This document shows positions 14,873-28,820 of a stretch of DNA of 64,000 nucleotides, one piece after another. Source of the DNA: Parafrankia irregularis (GTDB taxonomy: Bacteria > Actinomycetota > Actinomycetes > Frankiales > Frankiaceae); NCBI RefSeq assembly GCF_001536285.1, contig NZ_FAOZ01000004.1, forward strand, positions 372,001 through 436,000, given 5' to 3'. The notes under the pieces are model-generated. The model did no database searches and was not told the DNA's origin. It saw nothing but the letters and a program-made list of their open reading frames with translations. The position numbers and the translations under genes are program-made. Numbering within the stretch: the stretch's first letter is position 1; each line of letters starts with the position of its first letter.

Positions 14873-16122
14873 TCTACCTCGACCACAACGCGACCACGCC
14901 GGTGGACCCGCGCGTGCTGGACGCGATGCTGCCGCTGCTCACCGAGCAGTTCGCCAACCCGGCGAGCAGGCACGGGCCGGGCCAGGAGGTGACCCGGATC
15001 GTCGAGCGGGCCCGCCGCGAGGTCGCCACGCTCGCCGGCGCGCGGGCCCGTGACGTGGTCTTCACCTCCGGCGCCACCGAGGCGGCCAACCTGGCCATCG
15101 GCGGGGCGCTCGCCGCCCTCACCGCCGCCGGTTCCGGCCGTCGCCGGGTGCTCGTCGGGGCGACCGAACACCCCGCGGTGCTCGGCGCCGCCGATGCCGC
15201 CGCGGCGGCATCGGCCGGTCCCGGCGCGGGCTCCGGCACCCTCGCCGAACGCATCGCCGTCCACCCGGACGGCACCATCGACGTCGACGACCTGCGCCGC
15301 CGGCTCGGGCCCGACGTCGCCCTCGTCGCCGTCATGGCGGCGAACAACGAGACCGGGGCCGTGAACGACCTGCGGCCCCTGGTCGAACCCGTGCACGCGG
15401 CCGGTGCGCTGCTGTTCAGTGACATCACCCAGGCTCTGGGCCGGATCCCGGTCAGCCTCGACCGGACCGGCGTCGATGTGGCCGTCGCGTCCGCGCACAA
15501 GCTGTACGGCCCCAAGGGCGTCGGTGCGCTGATCGCGTCGAAGGACGCCTGGGCACGCATCGCGCCGCAGACACACGGCGGAGGCCAGGAACGTGGCCGG
15601 CGTCCCGGCACCCTCAACACCGCCGGGATCGCCGGCTTCGGCGCGGCCGCCCGCCTCGCGGCCGCGTCGATGACCGACGACGGAAACCGCCAGCGTGCGC
15701 TGGTGGCGCTGCTGACCGAGCTGCTCGTCAAACGGCTCGGCCGGGGCGCCGTCGAACTGAACGGCCCGGTGCGGGCCAGGCTGCCGAACACGGTCAACCT
15801 GCGTTTCGTCGGCGCGGGCGCCGACGAGGTCCAGGCCTGCCTTCCGCACGTCGCGGTCTCGGCTGGATCGGCCTGCAGCGGCGGTGGGGACACCCCGTCG
15901 CACGTCCTGCTGGCCATGGGCCGGACCGCCACCGAGGCCCGGGAGAGCCTGCGCTTCAGCCTGGGCCGCGCCACGACCCCCGAGGAAATCCGCACCGTCG
16001 CGGACCAGGTGGCCCGCGCTGTCCAGCGCGTTCGCTCCCTTACCCAGAGCACCCCCATCCAAGACGAGGTTCGCGATGACAACCGAGCTCGAACAGCCCG
16101 ACCCGCGGGTACGCCGGCTTAA
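14869..16122 (+). CDS. nifS: Cysteine desulfurase NifS
   Basis: A PLP enzyme, 417 aa, that converts cysteine to alanine and supplies sulfur for Fe-S and FeMo-cofactor assembly. Visible are MIYLDHNATTPVDPRVLDAM, the cofactor-binding ATEHPAVL, Asp185 in SDITQALG, the PLP lysine Lys211 (SAHKLYGPKG) and the catalytic Cys336 (SAGSACSGG). The GTG at 14869 overlaps the hesA stop and gives the standard N-terminus. The last 47 bp overlap korA in another frame, so the C-terminal ~15 residues are probably not conserved. Confidence 0.95.
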   Translation: MIYLDHNATTPVDPRVLDAMLPLLTEQFANPASRHGPGQEVTRIVERARREVATLAGARARDVVFTSGATEAANLAIGGALAALTAAGSGRRRVLVGATEHPAVLGAADAAAAASAGPGAGSGTLAERIAVHPDGTIDVDDLRRRLGPDVALVAVMAANNETGAVNDLRPLVEPVHAAGALLFSDITQALGRIPVSLDRTGVDVAVASAHKLYGPKGVGALIASKDAWARIAPQTHGGGQERGRRPGTLNTAGIAGFGAAARLAAASMTDDGNRQRALVALLTELLVKRLGRGAVELNGPVRARLPNTVNLRFVGAGADEVQACLPHVAVSAGSACSGGGDTPSHVLLAMGRTATEARESLRFSLGRATTPEEIRTVADQVARAVQRVRSLTQSTPIQDEVRDDNRARTARPAGTPA

Positions 16123-18064
16123 GGGAGTCGTCATCCGGTTCGCCGGTGACTCCGGTGACGGCATGCAGCTCACCGGTGACCGCTTCGGTGCGCAGGCCGC
16201 GGAGGCCGGCAACGACGTGGCGACCCTGCCGGACTTCCCGGCCGAGATCCGGGCGCCAGCCGGCACCGTCGGCGGTGTCTCCAGCTACCAGCTGCACGTC
16301 GCCGACCACGACATCACCACCCCCGGTGACCAGCCCGACGTCCTCGTCGCCATGAACCCGGCGGCGCTGAAGGCCACCCTCAAGGACCTCCGCCCCGGCG
16401 GCGTACTGGTCGTCGACTCCGGCGCGTTCAACGTGCGCGCCCTGGAGAAGGCCGGCTACGACTCCGACCCGCTGACCGACGGCTCGCTGAGCAACTACAT
16501 CGTGCACGCGGTCGACCTGACCGGGCTCGCCGTCGGCGCGACCGAAGGCCTCGGCCTCAAGCGCAAGGACGCCGCCCGCACGAAGAACATGTTCGCGCTC
16601 GGCCTGGTGTCCTGGATGTTCAACCAGCCGGTCGAGAGCACCGTCGCCTACCTGGAGAAGCGCTTCGCGAAGAAGCCGCCGGAGATCCTCGCCGGCAACC
16701 TCGCGTCGTTGCGGGCCGGCGTGGACTACGGCGACACCACCGAGGCGTTCGCCGTCTCCTACGAGGTCAAGCCCGCGCCGCTGCCCCCGGGCACCTACCG
16801 GCACATGCGCGGCAACCGGGCCATCGCGTTCGGCCTCGTCGCCGCCGCGCACCAGGCCGGCATGCCGCTGTTCCTCGGCGCGTACCCGATCACCCCCGCC
16901 ACCGACGTCCTGCACGAGCTGAGCAAGCTCATCTCGCACGACGTCCGCTCGTACCAGGCGGAGGACGAGATCGCGGCGATCGGCGCGTCGATCGGTGGCG
17001 CGTTCGCCGGCATGCTCGCCGTCACCGTGACCTCCGGGCCGGGCATGGCGCTGAAGTCCGAGGCGATCGGCCTGGCGATCTCGCTGGAGCTGCCGCTGGT
17101 CATCGTCAACGTGCAGCGCGGTGGCCCGTCCACCGGTCTGCCGACCAAGACCGAGCAGTCCGACCTGCTGCAGGCCCTCTACGGCCGGCACGGTGAGGCC
17201 CCGCTGCCCGTGATCGCCGCGCAGAGCCCGGCCGACTGCTTCAACGCGGCCTTCGAGGCGGCGCAGATCGCCCTGGAGCGGCGGACCCCGGTCATCCTGC
17301 TGTCCGACTCCTACATCGCCAACGGCAGCGAGCCGTGGAAGGTGCCGGACGTCAGCGAGCTGCCCGACCTGGGCATCGAGTTCGCCACCGAGCCGAACGG
17401 CATCGGCAAGGACGGCAAGCCCGCGTTCCACCCGTACAAGCGTGACCCGCGCACGCTGGCCCGTCCGCTGGCCATCCCCGGCACCCCCGGCCTGGAGCAC
17501 CGCATCGGTGGTCTGGAGAAGGCCGACGGCAGCGGCGAGATCTCGCACGACGCGGACAACCACGACCTGATGGTCCGCACCCGCCAGAACAAGGTCGACG
17601 GCATCGAGGTGCCGCCGCTGGAGGTCGACGACCCTTCCGGCCCGCCCGGGTTCGGCTCCAAGCTGCTCGTCATCGGCTGGGGCTCCACCTACGGCCCGAT
17701 CGGTGCGGCCTGCCGGCTCGTCCGCCAGCAGGGTCTCGCCATCGCCCAGGCGCACCTGCGCTACCTCAACCCGCTGCCGGCCAACCTCGCCTCCATCCTG
17801 GCGGCCTACGACACCGTGCTCGTCCCCGAGATGAACCTCGGTCAGCTCGGCGGCCTGCTGCGCATGCACTGCCAGATCGAGCCGGTCGGCTACACCCAGA
17901 CCCGTGGCCTGCCCTTCCGCGCGGTCGAGTTGGCCGCGGTGTTCACCCGGCTCGTCAACGACCTCGAGGACGGCGCCGCGGCACTGTCCACCGAGGACAT
18001 CAAGGCCATCGGCGGCACCGGCAAGGTCGGCCGCAGCGAGCTCGGATCGGAGAAGAACAAGTGA
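16076..18064 (+). CDS. korA: 2-oxoacid:ferredoxin oxidoreductase, alpha (gamma-alpha fused) subunit
   Basis: A 662-aa subunit of the KorAB type, which oxidatively decarboxylates a 2-oxoacid (2-oxoglutarate in most characterised relatives) and reduces ferredoxin. Residues 15-200 form the gamma domain (RFAGDSGDGMQLTGDRFG, LPDFPAEIRAPAGTVGG). Residues 240-660 are the pyrimidine-binding alpha domain (GAYPITPATDVLHEL, SYQAEDEIAAIG, VNVQRGGPSTGLPTKTEQ). The start lies inside nifS, so translation is coupled to the nif operon, which supports a role as electron donor pathway for nitrogenase. The substrate cannot be fixed from sequence. Confidence 0.93.
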   Translation: MTTELEQPDPRVRRLKGVVIRFAGDSGDGMQLTGDRFGAQAAEAGNDVATLPDFPAEIRAPAGTVGGVSSYQLHVADHDITTPGDQPDVLVAMNPAALKATLKDLRPGGVLVVDSGAFNVRALEKAGYDSDPLTDGSLSNYIVHAVDLTGLAVGATEGLGLKRKDAARTKNMFALGLVSWMFNQPVESTVAYLEKRFAKKPPEILAGNLASLRAGVDYGDTTEAFAVSYEVKPAPLPPGTYRHMRGNRAIAFGLVAAAHQAGMPLFLGAYPITPATDVLHELSKLISHDVRSYQAEDEIAAIGASIGGAFAGMLAVTVTSGPGMALKSEAIGLAISLELPLVIVNVQRGGPSTGLPTKTEQSDLLQALYGRHGEAPLPVIAAQSPADCFNAAFEAAQIALERRTPVILLSDSYIANGSEPWKVPDVSELPDLGIEFATEPNGIGKDGKPAFHPYKRDPRTLARPLAIPGTPGLEHRIGGLEKADGSGEISHDADNHDLMVRTRQNKVDGIEVPPLEVDDPSGPPGFGSKLLVIGWGSTYGPIGAACRLVRQQGLAIAQAHLRYLNPLPANLASILAAYDTVLVPEMNLGQLGGLLRMHCQIEPVGYTQTRGLPFRAVELAAVFTRLVNDLEDGAAALSTEDIKAIGGTGKVGRSELGSEKNK

Positions 18065-19092
18065 CCAGCCCCGACGCGGTAGGCAAGCAGCTCACCGCCA
18101 AGGACTTCTCCGCGGGCGAGGCCCGCTGGTGCCCTGGCTGCGGTGACCACGCCATCCTCAACAACATGCGCAACCTGATGCCGACCCTCGGCATCCCGCG
18201 CGAGAACTTCGTGGTGATCTCCGGCATCGGATGCTCCTCCCGGCTGCCGTACTACCTCGACACCTACGGCATGCACTCCATCCACGGCCGGGCGCCGTCG
18301 ATCGCGACCGGCGTCTCGATCAACCGGCCCGACCTGTCGGTGTGGGTCGTCACCGGTGACGGTGACGCGCTGTCGATCGGTGGCAACCACCTGATCCACG
18401 CGCTGCGCCGCAACGTCAACCTCAAGATCCTGCTGTTCAACAACCAGATCTACGGTCTGACCAAGGGCCAGTTCTCGCCGGCGACCAAGCCCGGCACCAT
18501 CACCCCGTCCAGCCCGTTCGGCTCGCTCGACCACTCCTTCAACCCGCTGGCGCTGGCGCTCGGCGCGGAGGCGTCCTTCGTCGCCCGCACCGTCGACACC
18601 GACCGCAAGCACATGATGGAGATCCTCGCCGCGGCCGCCGCCCACGACGGCTCCGCGCTGGTCGAGATCCGGCAGAACTGCCCGACCTTCAACCACGGGG
18701 AGCGGGCCGTCACCGCCGACACGTCGGTGCCGACACCGGCCGACGGCCCGATCCGCCTGGAGGCCGGCTCGCCGATCCTGTTCGGCGCCGACAGCCAGTG
18801 GGCGGTGCTGCGCGACGCCGAGACCGGCGACCTCAAGCTCGGCCGCTCGACGGAGAAGGGCGTCGTGGTGCACAACCCGCGCTCGACCAGCCCGACCTAC
18901 GCCTACGCGCTGGCCCGGATCGCCGACACCGAGCCCGAGCTCGCGCCGATCGGCGTGTACCGCGCGGTGGAGCGGGCGAGCTTCGACAAGCAGTACCAGG
19001 ACCGGCTCGCCGACGCCCGCGCAGGCGGCCGCGGTGACCTGCAGGACCTGCTCACCGGCAACGACTCCTGGACGGTCCCGGCCCGGTCCTGA
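18061..19092 (+). CDS. korB: 2-oxoacid:ferredoxin oxidoreductase, beta subunit
   Basis: A 343-aa thiamine-diphosphate-binding partner of KorA. Features are the cluster cysteines Cys24, Cys27 (RWCPGCGDH) and Cys58 (GIGCSSR), HGRAPSIATG, the TPP/Mg motif TGDGDALSIGGNH (GDGD at 99-102) closing with FNNQIYGLTKGQ, and a later QNCPTFNHGE. GTG start overlapping the korA stop (GTGA). It probably passes electrons to the 7Fe ferredoxin encoded 198 bp downstream. Confidence 0.93.
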   Translation: MTSPDAVGKQLTAKDFSAGEARWCPGCGDHAILNNMRNLMPTLGIPRENFVVISGIGCSSRLPYYLDTYGMHSIHGRAPSIATGVSINRPDLSVWVVTGDGDALSIGGNHLIHALRRNVNLKILLFNNQIYGLTKGQFSPATKPGTITPSSPFGSLDHSFNPLALALGAEASFVARTVDTDRKHMMEILAAAAAHDGSALVEIRQNCPTFNHGERAVTADTSVPTPADGPIRLEAGSPILFGADSQWAVLRDAETGDLKLGRSTEKGVVVHNPRSTSPTYAYALARIADTEPELAPIGVYRAVERASFDKQYQDRLADARAGGRGDLQDLLTGNDSWTVPARS

Positions 19093-19290
19093 TCCGGTCC
19101 TGACCCGGTCCGGACCTCTCGAACCGACCCTCTCCCCGTAGCTGACAGGGCCGCCCTGACCGGTTGATCCGGCCGGGGCGGCTGGTCAGGCCAGGCTTTG
19201 TCAAACCCGGCCAGGGCGTTCTGAGCGAACCGCAGGCAACGAGATTCTCCCGGGCCCGACACGGTCCCGTCGACGGAAAGAAGAACTCCG

Positions 19291-19632
19291 ATGCCCTACG
19301 TCGTCACGTCCCCCTGCATCGACGTCAAAGACGGCGCATGCCTCGACGAGTGCCCGGTCGACGCCATCTACGAGGGCGCCCGGAAGCTCTACATCAACCC
19401 CAACGAGTGCACCGAGTGCGGTGCCTGCGCCTCGGCCTGCCCGATCGGCGCCATCATGCTCGACCTCGAGGTGCCCAAGCCCGAACGGCCGTTCGTGAAG
19501 ACCGACAAGGAGTTCTTCTCGAAGGCGCTGCCGGGCCGCGACGAGCCGCTCGGCGACCCGGGCGGTGCCAAGGCCGCCGGCAAGATCGGCGTCGACACCC
19601 CCTTCGTCGCCGAGTTCCAGGCCGCGGAGTAA
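19291..19632 (+). CDS. Seven-iron ferredoxin ([3Fe-4S][4Fe-4S])
   Basis: A 113-aa electron carrier. Cysteine spacing is diagnostic: Cys9, Cys17 and Cys50 for a [3Fe-4S] cluster and Cys21, Cys40, Cys43, Cys46 for a [4Fe-4S] cluster, matching Azotobacter FdI and actinobacterial FdxA almost position for position. The C-terminal ~60 residues are the helical tail typical of the actinobacterial form. A GGAAAGAAG ribosome site precedes the ATG. Placed after korAB and before a strong terminator, it is the likely acceptor of KorAB electrons and a candidate donor to NifH. Confidence 0.93.
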   Translation: MPYVVTSPCIDVKDGACLDECPVDAIYEGARKLYINPNECTECGACASACPIGAIMLDLEVPKPERPFVKTDKEFFSKALPGRDEPLGDPGGAKAAGKIGVDTPFVAEFQAAE

Positions 19633-20428: not shown

Positions 20429-21343
20429 ATGCTCAGTACGGACGTCTTCGAGGAGCTGGTCAGCCGCGTTGCTGGTGTCCAGCGACAGGACGTGCGGTTC
20501 GAGGCCCGGTTAAGCGACGACCTGGGACTGGACTCGTACGGGCTGCTGGAACTCTGCTCGGCGCTGGCGGACGTCGGCGTGGACGTCGGCGAGGAGGACT
20601 GGCTGGCTGCCGGGACCGTCGGTGATCTCTACACGCGGTGCTGTGCCGGTGGCCTTCCGGGCACGGCGGAGGCCGGCCGGCCTCTCACCGGGGTGCCGCA
20701 TCGTTCGCCGCCGCGGGCCGAGGCCCTGACCGGGCCCGGCGCGTCGGACGGCTCGGACGGCTCGGACGACGAGGTGCTGCCACCGGAGCTGGCCGGACGG
20801 TACTTCCAGCTGACTCCGGTCCTCCCGTCGATGGCTCCTTTCCTGTACGAGCTTTCGATCGCGCCGGACGTCGGGTTCCGCTGGCGTTACCGAGGTGCCT
20901 TCCCGCCCTATGAAAAATTCGAGGCGGACCTCTGGCAGGGCATGCTGACGCAGTTCCTGATCGTTTCGCGTGAAACTGGTGAGGCGGCCGGTCACGCTAT
21001 TTGCTACAACCCTGACTTCGGCCTGGGGAACGCCTATGTCGGCGTCGCTATGACCAGCCGGTACCAGCGGTCCGGGATTGCCGCCGAACCAGTCGTCCTG
21101 TTTCTTCGCTACCTGTTCGACGTGTGGCCCTTCCGAAAGCTCTACTTCGAGCTGCCGGAGTTCAACTGCCGTCAGTTCGCGAGCGCGATCGGCAGCACAC
21201 TGCACATCGAGGCACGCTTCCGGGATCACGACTACTACCGCGGGCGACGCTGGGACCGCGTCGTCCTCGCGGCCTACCGGCAGGACCTGTATCCGGCCGG
21301 ATCGGCCGGTCGGGGTGAGGGGATCGACCTTTCGAGCGTGTAG
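20429..21343 (+). CDS. Acyl carrier protein-GNAT acyltransferase fusion
   Basis: A 304-aa two-domain protein. Residues 1-75 are an acyl-carrier domain with the phosphopantetheine site at Ser36 (LGLDSYGLLE). A Gly/Ser/Asp-rich linker (about 85-120) joins it to a GNAT-fold domain (about 120-290) with the acyl-CoA-type binding segment AYVGVAMTSRYQRSGIA and LYFELPEFN. The likely role is to hold an acyl group on the carrier arm and transfer it to an amine. The ATG at 20429 is chosen for its GAGGTG site; an upstream in-frame ATG adds only non-conserved residues. It is followed by an acyl-AMP ligase that could load it. Confidence 0.82.
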   Translation: MLSTDVFEELVSRVAGVQRQDVRFEARLSDDLGLDSYGLLELCSALADVGVDVGEEDWLAAGTVGDLYTRCCAGGLPGTAEAGRPLTGVPHRSPPRAEALTGPGASDGSDGSDDEVLPPELAGRYFQLTPVLPSMAPFLYELSIAPDVGFRWRYRGAFPPYEKFEADLWQGMLTQFLIVSRETGEAAGHAICYNPDFGLGNAYVGVAMTSRYQRSGIAAEPVVLFLRYLFDVWPFRKLYFELPEFNCRQFASAIGSTLHIEARFRDHDYYRGRRWDRVVLAAYRQDLYPAGSAGRGEGIDLSSV

Positions 21344-21415
21344 CCGGATTCCGATTCGCTCGGCGCCGCGGCGGGTCTACCCGCCGCCCGACCGTAGAGC
21401 ACGGAAGGATCTTCG

Positions 21416-23149
21416 ATGGTTTATCTGCTTGAACGGATGGAATCAGCCGCACGGAAGAACGGTGCCGTCACCTTCCTCTCGCCGTCGGGAGACGACGAGG
21501 TCGTCAGCTGGGGTGATCTGTACGCGGACGCCGTGAACCTGGCGGCAGTCCTGCAGACGGCGGGTATCGGCCCGGGCCGATCCGTGGTGATGTTGGCGCT
21601 GGCGTCACGGCCGGCGGTGACGGCGGCGATGGCGACCTGGCTGGCGGGCGGTGCCCTGACGATGGCACCCACGCCGACCCGGACGATGGACGAGGCCGCG
21701 TTCGTCGCCGAGACCGTGCGACGCATCAACCGGCTCGGTGGCAGTCCGCTGGTGCTGGTGGGGCCGCGATTCGACCAGATCCTGCCCGGTCTCGCGACCG
21801 GTGGGTGGGACGTCCGGATGCTCGACGACGTCCACGCCGAGGTTCGTGGCAGTGACGGGCTCCCTGCCTACGTACCACCGTCACTCACCGACGACGACCC
21901 GGCGATCCTGCAACTGACCAGTGGGACAACGGCGAGTGCGAAGACAGTGCGGGTCAGTCACGGGAATCTCGCGGCCAATGTGGAGGCAATCAAGGTCAGG
22001 GACGAGCACGACCGCTTCCACGGGCGGATCCTGTCCTGGCTGCCGCTGTCCCACGACATGGGCCTGATCGGCACCCTGATCATCCCGATGACCTGCGGTG
22101 GCTGTGACCTGCTGCTGTCCTCGCCACTGGACTACCTGGCCCGTCCGGCGAGCTGGATGGCGCAGATCTCGGAGTATCGAGCCACGTCGACGGTTGGGCC
22201 GAACTCCGCCTACGCACTGGCTGCCAAGCTTCTGGCGACCGGACCGGCTCTGGACCTGTCTCAGCTGCGCGGGATCCTGACCGGCGGGGAGAGCGTCGAC
22301 CTCGACGCGATGACCGCGTTCACCGCCGCCGCGCAGCGTCACGGCTTCAACCCGGCGCTGGTCGTGTCCGCCTACGGCATGGCCGAGACCGTTGTCGCCA
22401 CGACGATGACGCCGCTCGGCCGTGGCCTGGCTTCCGACAGCGTGGACGCCGACCTGCTCCAGACCGAAGGACGTGCCGTCCCGGTCGGACCGGGCCACAC
22501 CGGCAGGATCCGTCAGCTCGCCAGGCTCGGTGCTCCGGTCGACGGCCTGCGCCTGCGCATCTCGGACACCGAGACCGGGGCTGTTCTCACGGAACGGCTT
22601 GTCGGTGAGATCCAGGTCCACGGCACCTCGCTGACCGCCGGCTACCACAACGATCCGGAGGCGACGGCCGCCTCACGAACCGCCGACGGCTGGCTGCGCA
22701 CAGGCGACCTCGGCTACCTGGCCGACGGCGAGCTCGTCGTCACCGGACGGGTGAAGGATGTCATCATCCTCGCCGGCCGCAACATCTACCCGGAAGAGGT
22801 CGAGCGGGCCGCGGCCGGCGCCGAGGGCGTCCGCCCGGGCAACGTGGCCGCATTTCCCTACGTGCGGCCGAATGCGCTGGGCTCCGAGGGCCTGGCCGTC
22901 GCGCTGGAAACCCGCTGGCCCAGCGAGCGGCATGCGCAGCTGCGGTCCGACGTCGCCGCGCAGATACGTGCTGCCGTCGGGGTATCGCCCAATGAGGTGC
23001 TGATCCTTCCACCGGGGAGCCTTCCCAAGACGCCGTCCGGCAAGCTGCAACGCGCCGAGGCGCGCCGTCTGCTCGGTGTGGGCGGCAGCCCCGCTGAAAC
23101 GACTTCTTCCAAAAACACTGTTCCGGGCACCGAGGCGGCGATGGCATGA
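21416..23149 (+). CDS. Fatty-acyl-AMP ligase-like adenylate-forming enzyme
   Basis: A 577-aa ANL-superfamily enzyme. WLPLSHDMGLIG (208-219) is typical of fatty-acyl-AMP ligases that load carrier proteins rather than CoA. Other motifs are the P-loop LTSGTTASAK (167-176), ILTGGESVD, SAYGMAE (318-324), TGDLGYL (429-435) and the C-terminal catalytic lysine Lys543 in KTPSGKLQR. It probably activates a fatty or other carboxylic acid and passes it to the ACP domain of the upstream protein. It ends in a Ser/Thr-rich tail and overlaps the next gene (ATGA). Confidence 0.85.
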   Translation: MVYLLERMESAARKNGAVTFLSPSGDDEVVSWGDLYADAVNLAAVLQTAGIGPGRSVVMLALASRPAVTAAMATWLAGGALTMAPTPTRTMDEAAFVAETVRRINRLGGSPLVLVGPRFDQILPGLATGGWDVRMLDDVHAEVRGSDGLPAYVPPSLTDDDPAILQLTSGTTASAKTVRVSHGNLAANVEAIKVRDEHDRFHGRILSWLPLSHDMGLIGTLIIPMTCGGCDLLLSSPLDYLARPASWMAQISEYRATSTVGPNSAYALAAKLLATGPALDLSQLRGILTGGESVDLDAMTAFTAAAQRHGFNPALVVSAYGMAETVVATTMTPLGRGLASDSVDADLLQTEGRAVPVGPGHTGRIRQLARLGAPVDGLRLRISDTETGAVLTERLVGEIQVHGTSLTAGYHNDPEATAASRTADGWLRTGDLGYLADGELVVTGRVKDVIILAGRNIYPEEVERAAAGAEGVRPGNVAAFPYVRPNALGSEGLAVALETRWPSERHAQLRSDVAAQIRAAVGVSPNEVLILPPGSLPKTPSGKLQRAEARRLLGVGGSPAETTSSKNTVPGTEAAMA

Positions 23150-23664
23150 GCGTTGGGCAGAACGCGTCGGAGGCGGCACCGGTCGTCGGATACAACGAGG
23201 TCCAGGCCTGGAACCTGGACGGCGAGCCCACGGCGAAGTCCGACGCCGTCGTGAGGATTGTCGATGGCCTTCTCGCCGCCTGGCGGGAACCAGACCAGGA
23301 CGAACGCACCCGACGGTTGGAAGGTTGCGTCGCCGGTACGGTCGTCTTCACGAACCCGGCCACCCGCGTCGAGGGGCCGGCTGGAATCAGCGCCCACATC
23401 GCTCAGGTTCGGGACCGGCTTCCGGGCTACCTTCCGGTTCGGACGAGTGGCATAGACATCCATCACGACCACGCCCGCTTCGAATGGTCACTGCGGGACA
23501 GCTCCGGTAACGTCGGGCTGCGCGGTTTCGATATCCTAAAGTTCGACTCGGCACCGGCGATCCTCGCCGTCACGAGTTTTTTCGGGCCGATTCCTCGAAT
23601 CACCTACACCTACGGCTCGACCGACGGCTCGACCAGCGGATCCAATGAAGGCCCGTCGAGATGA
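23146..23664 (+). CDS. NTF2/SnoaL-like protein
   Basis: A 172-aa protein whose middle (about 35-150) has the alpha+beta cone pattern of the NTF2/SnoaL family: a long helix IVDGLLAAWREPDQDERTRRL, then strands VFTNPATRVEGPAGISAHIAQVR, DIHHDHARFEWSL and GFDILKFD. Members include polyketide cyclases, isomerases and dehydratases as well as binding proteins, so the reaction is open. It is translationally coupled to the acyl-AMP ligase, which places it in the same pathway. The C-terminal YGSTDGSTSGS is a linker-like tail. Confidence 0.75.
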   Translation: MSVGQNASEAAPVVGYNEVQAWNLDGEPTAKSDAVVRIVDGLLAAWREPDQDERTRRLEGCVAGTVVFTNPATRVEGPAGISAHIAQVRDRLPGYLPVRTSGIDIHHDHARFEWSLRDSSGNVGLRGFDILKFDSAPAILAVTSFFGPIPRITYTYGSTDGSTSGSNEGPSR

Positions 23665-23816
23665 GACATCCTCGCGGTGCCGCCGCGGACGAAGGGAAAC
23701 AAAGGCCGTAGCCGATGCTCGGGATCGTCATGGGCCCGGACATCGGAACCGGATAGCACAGTTCTCCACGCGGTCCGCACCGGACTGGCGACCTTCGCAC
23801 ATCAGTCAGGAGAAGA

Positions 23817-24293
23817 ATGGATTTCCGTTGGTCACTCGCCGACTCCTACGACCGGGCGCCGAAGCCCGCTCGCCGGGAGCGCTCACGTAGTACCACGTTG
23901 ACCGCCGCCGCGGTCGCGGCGGGGGTCGCGTCGATGCCCATCGCCGCCAACGCCGGTTCGTTCAGCACCTCCCTCAGCAACTTTCCCCAGGAGGGCCAGA
24001 CGAGTCGCTTCGGTGTCGGCGACGGCTACGATCCGGTACACCTCGAGCAGAGCGGCTGCAATCAGCAGCAGATCCAGAGCGACCTGCGCCGCGACATCAC
24101 GCTCGCCCCGGACAAAAGCTATGGCGTCGTCAACTTCACCAACTGCGTTGACTACACACAGGGGTGGGCTTGGAATATCACTGACCACCAGACCGGACAG
24201 TTCTTCTTTCAGTTCTGGTGGCCAGGGGCAAGTAACACCACGCTTACGACCAAGTCCACGAAGGCGTGGTGGGACGGCTCGGCCAAGCCCTAG
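23817..24293 (+). CDS. Small secreted protein
   Basis: I do not recognise the family of this 158-aa protein. The N-terminus is basic (RRERSRST), followed by a hydrophobic stretch (29-44) and a signal-peptidase-like AANA site, giving a mature product of about 112 residues. The mature part is rich in aromatic residues and Asn/Gln, with only two cysteines (Cys81, Cys110), which could form one disulfide. The overall look (GYDPVHLEQSGCNQQQI, NITDHQTGQFFFQFWWPG) is that of a compact extracellular beta domain. An AGGAG ribosome site supports the ATG. It may belong to the preceding cassette, 152 bp upstream. Confidence 0.65.
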   Translation: MDFRWSLADSYDRAPKPARRERSRSTTLTAAAVAAGVASMPIAANAGSFSTSLSNFPQEGQTSRFGVGDGYDPVHLEQSGCNQQQIQSDLRRDITLAPDKSYGVVNFTNCVDYTQGWAWNITDHQTGQFFFQFWWPGASNTTLTTKSTKAWWDGSAKP

Positions 24294-24575: not shown

Positions 24576-25256
24576 ATGCTTCTGAGGAATATCGCCTTTC
24601 GTTATGGCCGGCGGGCTCCGGTGGTGGAGGGGCTTGACCTCGCGCTGGACGAGCGGCCGCTGGTGATGATCGGGCCGAACGGCGCCGGGAAGTCGACGGT
24701 CCTGCGGCTGATGGCGGGGCAGCTGCGGCCGCGGTCGGGGCGGATCGAATACGCGGGCAAGATCGGGTTCGCGCCGCAGTTCACCCCGGTGCTGCCGAAC
24801 TTCACGGTCGAGCAGCAGGTGCGGTACGCGGGCTGGCTGTCGGGCCTGTCCCGCCGGGAGGCAGCCCGGTCCGCCGGCCCCGCGCTGGCGCGGGCGAACC
24901 TGGAGGCGTTGGCACAGCGCCCCGCCCGGCAGACGAGTGGCGGGGAGCGGGCCCGGCTGGGCATCGCCTGCGCGCTGGCGACGGACCCCGACCTGCTGCT
25001 GCTCGACGAGCCGACGGCGTCGCTGGACCCGCTGGCTCGCGAGTCGGTGTCCGAGGTGCTCACCGAGGTCGCGGGAGCGGGGACCCGGCTGGTCGTGACG
25101 TCCCATACAGCCACCGAGGTGCGTCCACCGTTCGAGCGGCTGATCGTGCTCGATCATGGTGTCGTCCGCTTCGACGGCTCACTCGGCGAGTTCTTCGGCA
25201 ACGCGCACGACGACGCGGTCGTCGCGGCCTTTGCGCAGGCTCTTCGTGTCCACTGA
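24576..25256 (+). CDS. ABC transporter ATP-binding protein
   Basis: A 226-aa ATPase. Walker A GPNGAGKST (33-41), Q-loop Gln68, signature TSGGE (120-124), Walker B LLLLDEP (140-146) and switch histidine (TSHTATE) are all present. It resembles ATPases of export or gliding-type two-component ABC systems. The ATG at 24576 is chosen because it gives the standard LRNIAFRYG start; upstream in-frame codons add unrelated sequence. The ribosome site is weak. It overlaps the following membrane-protein gene, whose product is the likely transmembrane partner. Confidence 0.88.
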   Translation: MLLRNIAFRYGRRAPVVEGLDLALDERPLVMIGPNGAGKSTVLRLMAGQLRPRSGRIEYAGKIGFAPQFTPVLPNFTVEQQVRYAGWLSGLSRREAARSAGPALARANLEALAQRPARQTSGGERARLGIACALATDPDLLLLDEPTASLDPLARESVSEVLTEVAGAGTRLVVTSHTATEVRPPFERLIVLDHGVVRFDGSLGEFFGNAHDDAVVAAFAQALRVH

Positions 25257-26553
25257 CCTCCCGGCACTCGCATCGTCGGCCTCACCGACCGGAAACGCGG
25301 TGCGAGGATCGGCCCCAGGGCGAAGTCGGGCCTGGCCGTTGACGGATCGGTCCTGGTGGCGGGAGCCGGCGATCCTGCTGGCGCCGCTGGCGGCGTTCGC
25401 CGCCTGGTTCTACAGCCAGAGCGACCTGGGGGTCGACTGGTACGTCCTCGGCCGGGCCCGATCCGCGAACGACGCGGTGATCGCGCTCGGGCCCTACGTC
25501 GCCGCGATCGTCGCGTGGGAGATGGGGACGCTGCGCCGGGTATGGGGGCGGCTGGCGGTGCGGCGCCCCTGGTGGCGGGTCCTCGCGGCCAGGATGGCGC
25601 TCCCGGTCACGGTAGCCCTGGTCATCCTGGTGGCGATCTACGCGGTGATGCTCGCGGGTCTGCCCACCTTCGCGTCGCCGGGGTGGAGCATCCCGGCGTT
25701 GTCGGTCGCGAACGTGCTCGGCTGGGCGCTGTTCGGCGCGGCGCTCGGACTGGTGCTCGGCCCCGTCCTGTCGCTGCCGGCCGCTCTGATCGTGCCGTTC
25801 CTGGTCCTCGCGGTCCCGAGAAGCTGGTCGGACCCGTTGTGGGCCCGCCACGTGACCGGTCTGGTTGACAGTTGCTGTGATCCCTCCGAGGTCTATGACA
25901 CTCGGGCTCTGACCGCCGGGCTCGCGTTCCTCGCTGTGATCGCGGTCGCCTCCCTCTGCGTGGCCGCCATCCGGCTCGCGCCGGCCCGGTCGGGCATCGG
26001 GCGTCCGGTGCTGGCGCTCGGCATCGTCGTGGCGGCGATCGCGGGCGGGCTGTTCGTCGGCCAGGACGTCCGGCAGCTGGGCCTTTCCTCGAGTGCCCCG
26101 CGGAACCCGGACGCTGTGCGGTGCTACGACGGGAACGTCTGCCTCTGGCCCGAGGAGACCTTCGCGCTCGAGGCGAACGTCCAGGCCTGGAAACGGGTCC
26201 GCGCGGCGTGGATCGATCTCGGCCTGCCGGAGCCACCGGTGGTCATCGGCCCGCGCAACAGCGGAATGCCACTGCCGATCACAATCGCCGTTCCCGACAT
26301 GGCCGGCAATGTCGAGGACGCTGAGGTCAGCCTGGTCATCAGGCTTCCGGCCGCGATGCGTGGCTGTTTCTACAGGAACTATGGCCTCGTCACCGGCACG
26401 GATAACGATCCTACAAGATTCGAGATCTTGTCATCGCTACTCAGAGCCCGGCTTGGTCTGCCGACCGGTGGCCCCCTTCCGGTGACCGCGGACCAGGCCT
26501 CCCAGATCTGGTCGCAGACCCAGCAATGTGAGGAGGGCCAGGCCGGTGGCTGA
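25246..26553 (+). CDS. ABC transporter-associated membrane protein with extracytoplasmic C-domain
   Basis: A 435-aa protein, from the GTG at 25246 that overlaps the ATPase stop. Six or so hydrophobic segments run through the first 290 residues (including AILLAPLAAFAAWFY, LPVTVALVILVAIYAVML, GLAFLAVIAVASLCVAA and LGIVVAAIAGGLFVG). The last ~150 residues are soluble and carry two cysteines in RCYDGNVCLWPEE. This looks like a permease fused to an outward-facing domain. The substrate is unknown. Confidence 0.7.
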   Translation: MSTDLPALASSASPTGNAVRGSAPGRSRAWPLTDRSWWREPAILLAPLAAFAAWFYSQSDLGVDWYVLGRARSANDAVIALGPYVAAIVAWEMGTLRRVWGRLAVRRPWWRVLAARMALPVTVALVILVAIYAVMLAGLPTFASPGWSIPALSVANVLGWALFGAALGLVLGPVLSLPAALIVPFLVLAVPRSWSDPLWARHVTGLVDSCCDPSEVYDTRALTAGLAFLAVIAVASLCVAAIRLAPARSGIGRPVLALGIVVAAIAGGLFVGQDVRQLGLSSSAPRNPDAVRCYDGNVCLWPEETFALEANVQAWKRVRAAWIDLGLPEPPVVIGPRNSGMPLPITIAVPDMAGNVEDAEVSLVIRLPAAMRGCFYRNYGLVTGTDNDPTRFEILSSLLRARLGLPTGGPLPVTADQASQIWSQTQQCEEGQAGG

Positions 26554-27214
26554 CTACCTCCGGGCCCATCGCCTGGCATCGACAGCCGGCCTGGCGGCGC
26601 TGCTCGCGCTGGCGGGCTGGTCGTTCGCCTCGACCACGCTGCCCATCCCGCAGCTGCTCTCCGGCGGATCCCAGCCCGTCCTGTTCCAGCTGCTCCTGAC
26701 AACTCTGGCCGCGCCGGTCGTCGTGGCGGCCTTCCCGGAGGAGACGCTTCGGCTGGAGGCCGCGTCGCGTCGCCGCCTATGGGTGTACGACGTCGTCACG
26801 CTGGTCGCCGTCCTCGGCCCGGTCCTCCTGGTCTCGGCCGTCGCGCCGCTGCTCGGCGACGGCACCCACACCGATGAACTGGCCCGGAACACCGCCCTGT
26901 TCGTCGGCCTGGCCCTCGGCGTGCACGCGGCCTTCGGTCAGACGGCGGCGGTGGTCGTGCCGTGCGTCTACTTCCTGGCCATCGCGACGGCTGGCGGCCT
27001 GCCGTACGGCGGCTACCGATCGTGGGCTTTTCCCGCGGCGGATGCCACCCCGAGCAACTCCGCCGCCGCCGCGGTCGTGTTGCTCGTCGGCCTGCTGGTC
27101 TTCGCGGTCCGCCAACGCCGACCCGCCCGCCCGCGGTCCGGGCGGGCGCGGGTCCCGATCACGCCGTCCGGAACGTCGGCCGTCGGCGCAGGCTCGATCC
27201 AGTCCAGCGGCTGA
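26546..27214 (+). CDS. Integral membrane protein of the ABC operon
   Basis: A 222-aa protein with about five hydrophobic segments (TAGLAALLALAGWSF, LFQLLLTTLAAPVVVAAF, VTLVAVLGPVLLVSAVAPLL, TALFVGLALGVHAAF, AAAVVLLVGLLVFAV). The GTG at 26546 has an AGGAGG site at 26531-26536 and overlaps the preceding stop by 8 bp, so it is coupled to the ABC genes. It is probably the second membrane subunit or an accessory. The C-terminal Arg/Pro/Ser tail is cytoplasmic. Confidence 0.7.
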   Translation: MADYLRAHRLASTAGLAALLALAGWSFASTTLPIPQLLSGGSQPVLFQLLLTTLAAPVVVAAFPEETLRLEAASRRRLWVYDVVTLVAVLGPVLLVSAVAPLLGDGTHTDELARNTALFVGLALGVHAAFGQTAAVVVPCVYFLAIATAGGLPYGGYRSWAFPAADATPSNSAAAAVVLLVGLLVFAVRQRRPARPRSGRARVPITPSGTSAVGAGSIQSSG

Positions 27215-27224
27215 CACACAACCC

Positions 27225-28820
27225 TCAGACACCTCCGCCGGATGCGGGGGCGCCGAACAGCTCCAGGTATTTCTGCGCCGAGTTCGGGTGGAGCTGCGGG
27301 TTGAGCAGCGACGAGCGGACGTTGTTCGACTCGGCGGTGTTGAAGTAGGCCTCGTAGGCGAGAATGTCCCGGTTCTGGTCGAACAGGTCGTGCATCTTCT
27401 CGATGAACAGCGAGTTGTCGCCGCCGCCGTGGCGGTCCGCGCGGGCCAGCCCCCATTCGGGCACCGCGAACTTCTTCCCGTGCGCCCGCGCGAAGTTGAT
27501 CACGGTGCACGTTCCGGACGGGACGTTGCACTGCTCGTCGAAAAGCTCCGTGGTGGTCGACGGCGGGTACGAGTCGTAGACGTCGCTGCTGACGATGTCC
27601 ACGTAGTCATCGCCCGGATAGGCGGCCCAGACGTCGTCACCGTTGGTCATCCGGTCTCGGTGCGCGCTCACGTTGAAGTCGATCAGCACACCCGGGGCCA
27701 TGGACCGGATCGCCGTCACCGCACGCTGGAAGCAGGTCTTCCAGGTCTCGGTGTTGCGCGGGTGCCACCAGAACCAGTTCCCGTTGTACTCCCAGCCGAG
27801 CCGCACGATCGCGTCCGGCCGCCCGTTACGGATCAGGGTCTGCCCGAAGGCCGCCCAGTACTGGTCGTACTGGCCGTTCGCACAGCTGCGTTCGTTCCCG
27901 GATTCGGGGAAGAGCGGCTGCGCGATGGAGACCTGCCCCGGGAAGACGCTCTTCGGGTAGTTCGAGAGCGGCCAGTCCGAGAACACGATGTGCTGCCAGT
28001 TGTTCCGGACGGTGAAGACCACGGCGATGTCGGACGCCCGCCCGGTCCAGCGGTCCCAGGCCCAGATGTCGAGCGGCGGGTTCGCGTTCGTGCCGGACGG
28101 CCAACGGACACCGGGGGCGGCCGGTCCGTCCGCGGTCGGCTCCGGCTCGGTGGGTTCCGGGGCCGGTGGGGCGTCGGCCGTGCCGATGGCCGGGCGCGGG
28201 CTGGGCGCGGCGGTGCCGGAGGTCCGCCGCTGATCGCCGGAGCCGGTGGTGAGCGCCACCAGACCGAGTGCCCCCAGCATCAGGACCAGGCCGGCGGCCA
28301 CCACGCCGATCACGGTCCGGCGCCGGCGCCGGCGTGCGCGCCCGTTCGCCGGCGCGCTGCGATGACTCCCGCGCCGCCGGCCTCCACCGGGCTTCGCGGG
28401 CGACTCGCTGTCCCCGCCGCTGTCCGCGCCGCTGTCTGCGCCACCGGGCTTCGCGGGCGACTCGCTGTCCCCGCCGCTGTCCGCGCCGCTGTCTGCGCCG
28501 CTGTCCGCGCCGCTGTCCGCGCCGCCGGGCGTGGTGCCGACTGCGCCGCCGGGTGTGCTTTCCGCTGTCTCTTCGGGTGTGTCTCCGCCGGTGCTCGCGG
28601 TCGTGCCTTCGGGCATGCCGTCGACCGCGGGGAGCGGAACTGTGTCACTGATCGTGCGGCTCATCGTCGGGGCCGCCGTGACTGCCGTGGCCGTATCTGT
28701 GCCCACGCCGGCGGCTTCCGCCTTCGGCCCCGCCTCCGCCACCGTCGTGCCGCCTGCCTTGCTGGCTGCCTCGTGCCGTCGCACGCACTTCCCCCATCGA
28801 GCGCCCCGCCGCACACTCAC
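27225..28820 (-). CDS. Membrane-anchored GH26-type glycoside hydrolase
   Basis: A 531-aa protein. Residues 1-168 are a cytoplasmic low-complexity region with GADS repeats, residues 169-191 form a single transmembrane helix after an Arg cluster, and a Pro/Glu linker leads to an extracytoplasmic catalytic domain (about 240-531). Candidate catalytic glutamates are Glu344 in RLGWEYNGNW and Glu455 in VPEWGLA, as in GH26 endo-mannanases and related enzymes. The likely substrate is a cell-wall or extracellular beta-glycan. The start is uncertain: MSRTISD (residue 53) is possible. It converges on the ABC operon with only 10 bp between stops. Confidence 0.8.
   Translation of the reverse strand: MSVRRGARWGKCVRRHEAASKAGGTTVAEAGPKAEAAGVGTDTATAVTAAPTMSRTISDTVPLPAVDGMPEGTTASTGGDTPEETAESTPGGAVGTTPGGADSGADSGADSGADSGGDSESPAKPGGADSGADSGGDSESPAKPGGGRRRGSHRSAPANGRARRRRRRTVIGVVAAGLVLMLGALGLVALTTGSGDQRRTSGTAAPSPRPAIGTADAPPAPEPTEPEPTADGPAAPGVRWPSGTNANPPLDIWAWDRWTGRASDIAVVFTVRNNWQHIVFSDWPLSNYPKSVFPGQVSIAQPLFPESGNERSCANGQYDQYWAAFGQTLIRNGRPDAIVRLGWEYNGNWFWWHPRNTETWKTCFQRAVTAIRSMAPGVLIDFNVSAHRDRMTNGDDVWAAYPGDDYVDIVSSDVYDSYPPSTTTELFDEQCNVPSGTCTVINFARAHGKKFAVPEWGLARADRHGGGDNSLFIEKMHDLFDQNRDILAYEAYFNTAESNNVRSSLLNPQLHPNSAQKYLELFGAPASGGGV
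28384..28535 (-). repeat. 57-bp direct repeat plus 12-bp units in the GH26 gene
   Basis: A 57-bp unit occurs at 28384-28440 and again at 28441-28497. It is followed by further 12-bp units (CCGCTGTCCGCG type). On the coding strand these give runs of GADS and GGDSESPAKP. All periods are multiples of 3, so expansion keeps the frame. Confidence 0.9.

Follow-up and report, generated by a model that had tools for sequence, protein, structure and literature searches.

A small gene cassette of Parafrankia irregularis may encode a dedicated acyl-transfer module, and we tentatively favour a co-encoded small secreted protein as the most likely acceptor of the acyl group. The cassette lies in a 64,000-nucleotide stretch (hereafter the window) at positions 372,001 to 436,000 of the forward strand of contig NZ_FAOZ01000004.1, assembly GCF_001536285.1, a 9.5-Mb genome (G000, contig C4 in our data set). 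It consists of an acyl carrier protein (ACP) fused to a GCN5-related N-acetyltransferase (GNAT) domain, a fatty acyl-AMP ligase (FAAL)-like enzyme, a SnoaL/NTF2-like protein and the secreted protein, all on the forward strand. A sequence-only reading had proposed acyl activation, loading and transfer without polyketide synthase (PKS) or non-ribosomal peptide synthetase (NRPS) modules; the domains, the conserved key residues and the co-travelling genes support this, and all four open reading frames (ORFs) are found where it had placed them. Gene order, conservation, predicted folds, co-inheritance and secreted-protein adjacency form the basis on which we infer phosphopantetheinylation of the ACP, the nature of the acyl substrate, its transfer and its acceptor.

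Among 35 Frankiaceae genomes, which are also all members of the taxonomic order in our sample, the order ACP-GNAT, ligase, NTF2 recurs in 21 loci of 17 genomes, the window included, and the cassette is therefore beyond chance. Besides the window, these loci are L054, L060, L061, L062, L064, L065, L066, L067, L068, L069, L070, L078, L087, L088, L089, L090, L098, L099, L100 and L103; the count omits L020 (the same place as L064) and loci in which a gene is absent, truncated or on the opposite strand. Joint conservation, whose absence the sequence-only reading had named as one of two grounds for refutation, holds at genome level. Strong matches to ACP-GNAT (E ≤1e-20), ligase (E ≤1e-80) and NTF2 (E <1e-15) are present in 25, 24 and 23 of the 35 genomes, respectively, and these sets are nested: the ligase occurs in 24 of the 25 genomes with ACP-GNAT and in none of the 10 without, and every genome with NTF2 also has the ligase. 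Two genomes fall short of the full set: G020 has ACP-GNAT but no ligase, and G024 has no strong NTF2 match. The 5.4-Mb Frankia genome G008 lacks ACP-GNAT, ligase and the secreted partner typical of Frankia. NTF2 also has weak matches where the core is absent: at E 1e-8 the number of genomes rises to 26 of 35, with G003, G008 and G029 among them. Mean dN/dS values of the Frankia copies are all below 1, i.e. 0.238 for ACP-GNAT, 0.236 for the ligase and 0.499 for NTF2 (21 pairs each), and 0.444 for the partner (28 pairs). In a class-level sample of 393 genomes, 35 of them family members, one strong ACP-GNAT match lies outside the family (G124, E 6.0e-44) and the next outside match is at E 3.0e-11; at E 0.001, 189 of the 393 genomes give a match of some kind, and the weaker GNAT-only or ACP-only matches are not counted as members. 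At the G124 locus (L071, 8910–9308, minus strand), the ligase beside ACP-GNAT is reduced to two short similar pieces.

The ACP-GNAT fusion (20,429–21,343; 304 residues) combines an ACP (about residues 1–75), a flexible linker and a GNAT domain (about residues 121–290). The ACP scores 27.8 bits against PF00550 (Pfam cut-off 20.8), with Ser36 (codon 20,534–20,536) inside a GLDSY motif. By sequence, the GNAT part stays under the Pfam cut-offs (PF00583, 17.5 of 20.7; PF13302, 17.2 of 25.4). The AlphaFold2 model (mean pLDDT 82.9) contains a helical ACP, a low-confidence linker (residues 78–106) and a GNAT fold, both domains being confident, and a Foldseek search with the GNAT domain retrieves SpeG-type enzymes (E 1.4e-09, probability 1.00; TM-score 0.82 by target length to 3tth). 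As modelled, the C-terminal domain thus has the fold of the GNAT superfamily. Asp35 and Ser36 are invariant in 29 of 29 aligned ACP-GNATs, as are R151, W152, G216, K237, Y239, E241, N246, R273, W275 and D276, among others. The motif Q/R-x-x-G-x-G/A is described as the coenzyme A (CoA)-binding motif of GNATs (PMC13060382, in part). The window protein retains this loop; most other copies have neither Q nor R at its first position, and several clade-B copies (see below) have P at its last. Judged from these sequences, the altered loop could suit a donor presented by the fused ACP instead of by CoA.

The ligase (21,416–23,149; 577 residues) matches PF00501 (E 1.1e-48) and narrowly passes NCBIfam PRK07768 (579.2 of 572); MbtM is its second-best NCBIfam match (334.5 bits, below the cut-off of 621). 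Its closest solved relative is the fatty acyl-adenylate ligase 3pbk (E 8.7e-59). Six of the top 18 PDB rows are named acyl-adenylate or AMP ligases and the others are labelled, for instance, as acyl-CoA synthase, PKS or adenylation domain; we take several of these to be FAALs. CoA ligases rank after these 18 rows, from E 1.6e-22. As regards the insertion that FAALs have in the N-terminal domain, residues ∼340–372 of the ligase align to 3pbk with a one-residue gap. Two 4-coumarate CoA ligase matches (3a9u and 5bsm) start at residue 372, but 3tsy spans 158–561, all of these being PDB-search alignments; the fetched loci contain no CoA ligase for comparing the insertion. An SGK lysine and a GRxKD hinge can be read in the ligase, presumably with their usual motif meaning. 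By sequence comparison, the adenylating fold is nearest to FAALs.

The NTF2-like protein (23,146–23,664; 172 residues) stays under the SnoaL_2 cut-off (20.5 of 27) and matches SnoaL-like PDB chains at E 2.2e-10 and 4.1e-10. W46, D104 and H106 are among the invariant residues of 18 aligned sequences, a pattern that allows for catalysis. With script-chosen starts, its gene overlaps the ligase gene by 4 bp in L051, L057, L064, L065, L067, L068, L069, L070, L078, L088, L089 and L090, and by longer, start-dependent stretches in others (e.g. L054, L060, L062 and L087).

Our results indicate that the small secreted protein (23,817–24,293; 158 residues, with a signal-peptide-like segment at about residues 24–46 by a home-made scan) belongs to the cassette. 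We scanned the surroundings of the cassette genes for short ORFs with a ribosome-binding site and a signal peptide by this home-made rule, omitting L019, L020, L021, L091 and L092 as copies of other loci. On the same strand, 24 such ORFs occur within 1 kb (97.4 kb scanned), 8 at 1–2 kb (81.3 kb), 3 at 2–3.5 kb (113.0 kb), 2 at 3.5–5 kb (98.6 kb), 1 at 5–7 kb (116.65 kb) and 0 at 7–10 kb (85.0 kb). The density is thus 0.25 per kb within 1 kb versus 0–0.02 per kb past 3.5 kb, and at most 0.018 per kb on the opposite strand. A partner lies within 1.5 kb in 23 of 45 loci. Since orthologous loci enter the scan, as many as ten of them with the Frankia-type partner, it shows an association and not a probability. 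The sequence-only reading had recorded a small secreted protein after the enzymes, an observation that this enrichment bears out and that deserved more weight than it was given there. It had also left the product open between an N-acylated small molecule and a modified protein; because the secreted protein is the recurrent partner, the choice shifts towards the modified protein, with the small molecule as the main rival.

Among the other 34 family genomes, the window secreted protein has one homologue, in L093, where the order is ACP-GNAT, NTF2, secreted protein, ABC (ATP-binding cassette) gene and permease, and the ligase is missing. A relative of the L093 protein (31% identity, E 1.4e-09) follows the second ACP-GNAT of the window genome (L058) and precedes an ABC gene; it has no direct match to the window secreted protein.

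The secreted partners, 138–172 residues long in most loci, fall into several families: (i) the Frankia type; (ii) a DUF2690-like type (PF10901, 21.8 bits at best, just below the cut-off of 23); (iii) a matrixin-like type (HELGH in the four examined; PF00413, 34.5 bits in L084, cut-off 24); (iv) the window type, found with an ABC transporter; and (v) the L083 pair. The Frankia type occurs as one copy in each of 12 Frankia genomes, adjoining the NTF2 gene in 10 and lying at a contig end in 2. Four Cys are invariant in its 10 aligned sequences and, with divergent relatives included, are present in 12 of 13 aligned mature sequences (L064 has two), the last being at most 4 residues from the C-terminus; many of the four-Cys partners, not all, share a Lys that precedes a beta-turn. 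The Frankia-type model is all-beta (mean pLDDT 77.9, only two of five models being confident) and finds no PDB fold match at E ≤0.001, the best being CsgH at 3.5e-03. Matrixin-like metalloproteases, together with a lipoprotein-like gene, are encoded near clade-B ACP-GNATs on the same strand in L080 (8750–11371), L079 (8510–10709), L056 (9253–11574) and L084 (6569–11556); L080 also contains NTF2, and L084 the ligase, with a gap of ∼1.1 kb before ACP-GNAT.

We then compared the partners with the phylogeny of the enzyme. The ACP-GNAT tree (32 rows) contains two well-supported clades (100/100). Seven partner labels that we assigned, one of them 'none', require 13 changes on this tree; the least possible is 6, the shuffled mean is 17.6, and 0 of 200 shuffles is as low. 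Partners therefore partly follow the enzyme and are also exchanged. The window and DUF2690-like types each appear in three separate places of the tree, the matrixin-like type is clustered (2 changes), and the sister loci L060 and L061 (100/99) carry unlike partners at the equivalent position behind a P450 gene.

We suggest the following route, which is the simplest reading of the parts with regard to ACP loading and transfer by the tethered GNAT: (i) the FAAL-like ligase would adenylate a carboxylic acid, probably a fatty acid; (ii) it would load the acyl group onto the phosphopantetheine of the fused ACP; (iii) the tethered GNAT would pass the acyl group from the phosphopantetheine arm to an amine; (iv) this amine may be a lysine or the N-terminus of the small secreted protein of the same cassette, which would receive the acyl group while still in the cytoplasm; and (v) export would then proceed via the signal peptide or, for the window protein, possibly with help from the ABC transporter encoded next to it. 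The NTF2-like protein may be an accessory subunit or a tailoring enzyme. A protein acceptor is proposed because the secreted protein is the recurrent extra gene and because the enzymes stay constant while the partner changes.

Several observations weigh against a protein acceptor. By the scan, 22 of the 45 loci have no partner within 1.5 kb; some of these are truncated at a contig end, the filter overlooked at least one partner (L070), and L052 and L057 are among those that remain partnerless. The loci are largely orthologous, not independent, and the signal peptides come from a home-made rule. The ligase is absent from the L093 and L080 operons, no lysine is common to all partner families, and matrixin-like protease partners are unlike the beta proteins, which is odd for one acceptor-recognizing enzyme. 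Such diversity of partners for a single acceptor enzyme also suits a different product, namely an N-acylated small molecule (an amino acid, amine or polyamine) that leaves the cell through the ABC transporter, with the secreted protein as its carrier, its sensor or a factor acting alongside it. We consider this nearly as likely: chemistry of this kind, from FAAL through ACP to GNAT, has a precedent on small amines (the mycobactin side chain), the GNAT domain comes nearest by fold to SpeG polyamine acetyltransferases, and a P450 gene, typical of tailoring, follows NTF2 in L055, L060, L061 and L062. What tells against it is that the recurrent extra gene encodes a secreted protein, and that no dedicated amine-precursor gene is found among the recurrent neighbours, as delimited by a crude gene caller.

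The cassette might alternatively be an ordinary lineage-specific biosynthetic operon, with the secreted proteins as fast-changing neighbours that have no functional link to it. The partner families are indeed mostly unrelated to one another by sequence; three of the eight DUF2690-like matches within Frankiaceae are on contigs without ACP-GNAT (G005:C35, G004:C357 and G020:C249) and five on cassette contigs; and the weak Frankia-type relative in G001 is on a different contig from the cassette. We regard this explanation as improbable in view of the strong same-strand enrichment with its distance control, the single-copy, position-fixed Frankia-type partner (mean dN/dS 0.444 in 28 pairs) and the recurrence of the window partner type.

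The position of the cassette beside the nif cluster, which the sequence-only reading had pointed out, looks like coincidence. In the window, the nif cluster starts with nifH at 1998, and the cassette is 18 kb from nifH; this adjacency is what speaks for a nif accessory, e.g. one serving a vesicle-envelope lipid. However, it is seen in no other family genome. A nifH match (E ≤1e-60) is present in 25 of the 35 genomes, and ACP-GNAT occurs in 18 of these 25 and in 7 of the 10 nifH-negative genomes, so that 7 of the 25 ACP-GNAT genomes lack nifH. Of the 17 other genomes with both, 15 have them on separate contigs, and in the other 2 (G006 and G010) ∼300 kb lies between them; draft assemblies could mask linkage, and the single-contig G006 and G010 show none. 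Furthermore, the third-codon-position GC content of the four cassette genes (0.77–0.83, versus 0.932 ± 0.031, lowest 0.818, in 44 other predicted window genes) is consistent with their insertion next to nif. A general nif-accessory role is thus refuted within these genomes and is very unlikely overall.

To return to the secreted protein as acceptor, the Frankia-type partner of Frankia alni ACN14a (G006) is FRAAL6541: our match spans 7118052–7118474 without the stop codon, and the published coordinates are 7,118,052–7,118,477 (Table 3 of PMC9956245, in part). In the available part of the same paper, FRAAL6541 is one of nine proteins that belong to the core of the Alnus-infective cluster Ia and are missing from clusters Ic, II, III and IV, with no function given; FRAAL6537–6540 and FRAAL6542 do not appear in its main text as available, and it is the only literature found on FRAAL6538–6541. 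Two genomes from the same genus as the window contain weak Frankia-type relatives (G001, 36% identity, E 3.8e-13; G005, E 3.6e-04). Cluster Ia is a lineage, so the distribution of FRAAL6541 is a correlation and not evidence on host range. It is a rather doubtful extension of our reading that the cassette is a general protein-lipidation system of Frankiaceae, with partners swapped between lineages and FRAAL6541 as a lipidated, host-associated symbiosis factor. Should acylation of the secreted protein prove right, FRAAL6541 would gain a testable function, and an actinobacterial symbiont would be seen to lipidate its exported proteins by an undescribed route in which the transferase carries its own tethered acyl donor. 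With a small molecule as acceptor, the cassette would still be a conserved Frankiaceae pathway without assignment. The molecular triggers of the Frankia symbiosis are said to be hard to ascertain (PMC5411423, in part).

No named pathway with ACP first and GNAT second was found in the open literature, as the sequence-only reading had supposed; the searches were only partly aimed at this, and most subscription papers were outside their scope. A close functional parallel is mycobactin biosynthesis, in which MbtM, MbtL and MbtK are a FAAL, an ACP and a GNAT-type lysine N-acyltransferase. The three activities are the same as in the cassette, but the mycobactin ACP is separate whereas that of the cassette is fused to GNAT. 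The Pfam family of MbtK-type GNATs, which we take to be Acetyltransf_8, has no match in ACP-GNAT, where PF00550, PF00583 and PF13302 are the only matches at E ≤1. Curacin-type PKS loading modules also place GNAT and ACP on one chain, but in the reverse order, with decarboxylative loading and an attached PKS.

Other GNATs and acyltransferases act on proteins or lipids. In lipidated ribosomally synthesized and post-translationally modified peptides (RiPPs; e.g. goadvionin, lipoavitides, selidamides and nostolysamides), GNATs acylate the ribosomal product, and an ABC transporter is present in most clusters of one group (PMC13060382, in part). The cassette would share these features and differs in its secreted domain protein with a signal peptide, its own FAAL and its fused ACP. 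Lipidated RiPPs combine a short, leader-bearing precursor with a class-defining modifying enzyme, a combination that the cassette does not present, and no lanthipeptide synthetase is found in the selection of neighbour proteins scanned. Toxin-activating acyltransferases (HlyC and CdiC) perform acyl-ACP-dependent lysine acylation of exported proteins (PMC8510554, in part); the cassette differs by its dedicated ligase and fused ACP and has no match to the HlyC family domain at E ≤1. Nor does it match, at E ≤1, PF13444, which defines OlsB-type aminolipid synthases (PMC11631085, in part). Stand-alone FAALs of natural-product clusters load a cognate ACP before hand-off to PKS or NRPS (PMC11837247, in part). 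The cassette has this type of ligase in common with them, but its hand-off would involve no PKS or NRPS, and the word GNAT is absent from the main text of that review. In brief, the cassette would work like MbtM/MbtL/MbtK and the lipidating GNATs of RiPPs, yet by sequence it lacks the features tested for membership in either. With a small secreted protein that varies from lineage to lineage often encoded beside it, it suggests an undescribed kind of modification of exported proteins.

The sequence-only reading ended the cassette at 24,293. The four genes stand, and an ABC transporter ATP-binding protein (24,576–25,256; PF00005, E 6.1e-25) and a membrane protein that is a probable ABC permease (25,339–26,553; start uncertain, longest ORF from 25,156) probably belong too, because L093 has ACP-GNAT, NTF2, secreted protein, ABC gene and permease in the same order. 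The L093 ABC gene, after the secreted protein, is 66% identical to that of the window, and the permease-type ORF that comes next in L092/L093 (the same place under two handles) is 47–49% identical to the window membrane protein, which has no Pfam or NCBIfam match. A further small membrane protein (26,528–27,214, alternative start 26,546; no Pfam match) is a possible member by position and strand only; like the two preceding genes, it is on the forward strand. In the window, ACP-GNAT and ligase are 72 bp apart, ligase and NTF2 overlap by 4 bp, and a further 152 bp leads to the secreted protein and 282 bp from there to the ABC gene. The promoter and terminator scan found no sigma-70-like site and one terminator-like site at 27,247, below the shuffle mean. 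No PADLOC match suggests a defence system at E ≤0.001, apart from generic ATPase models on the ABC protein. The scanned selection of flanking proteins (a phosphate-type transporter, a tRNA-synthetase-like protein, EPSP synthase, an esterase and a phosphoglucose-isomerase-like protein) looks like unrelated neighbours and not like a larger recurrent biosynthetic cluster. Upstream, 796 bases without an assigned gene separate the cassette from a 2-oxoacid:ferredoxin oxidoreductase-like pair and a ferredoxin (16,076–19,632, read from sequence) downstream of the nif genes; gene names in the nif region are partly our assumption.

Two further ACP-GNAT copies are irregular. In L058 (G000:C4:472000–491900), the second copy of the window genome (9193–9963, minus strand) has a frame that begins only past the point where the ACP serine is expected, and an in-frame stop lies upstream of it. 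This copy, which is followed by a secreted protein and an ABC gene, may be degraded or rely on a different ACP. The copy in L055 (9624–10499) has an in-frame TAA in its GNAT part, a possible pseudogene or sequencing error. P450 and secreted proteins are recurrent among cassette neighbours. A P450-like gene follows NTF2 in L055 (Pfam-tested), in L060, L061 and L062 (same sequence cluster) and in L096 (read from sequence), and this P450 may modify the acyl chain.

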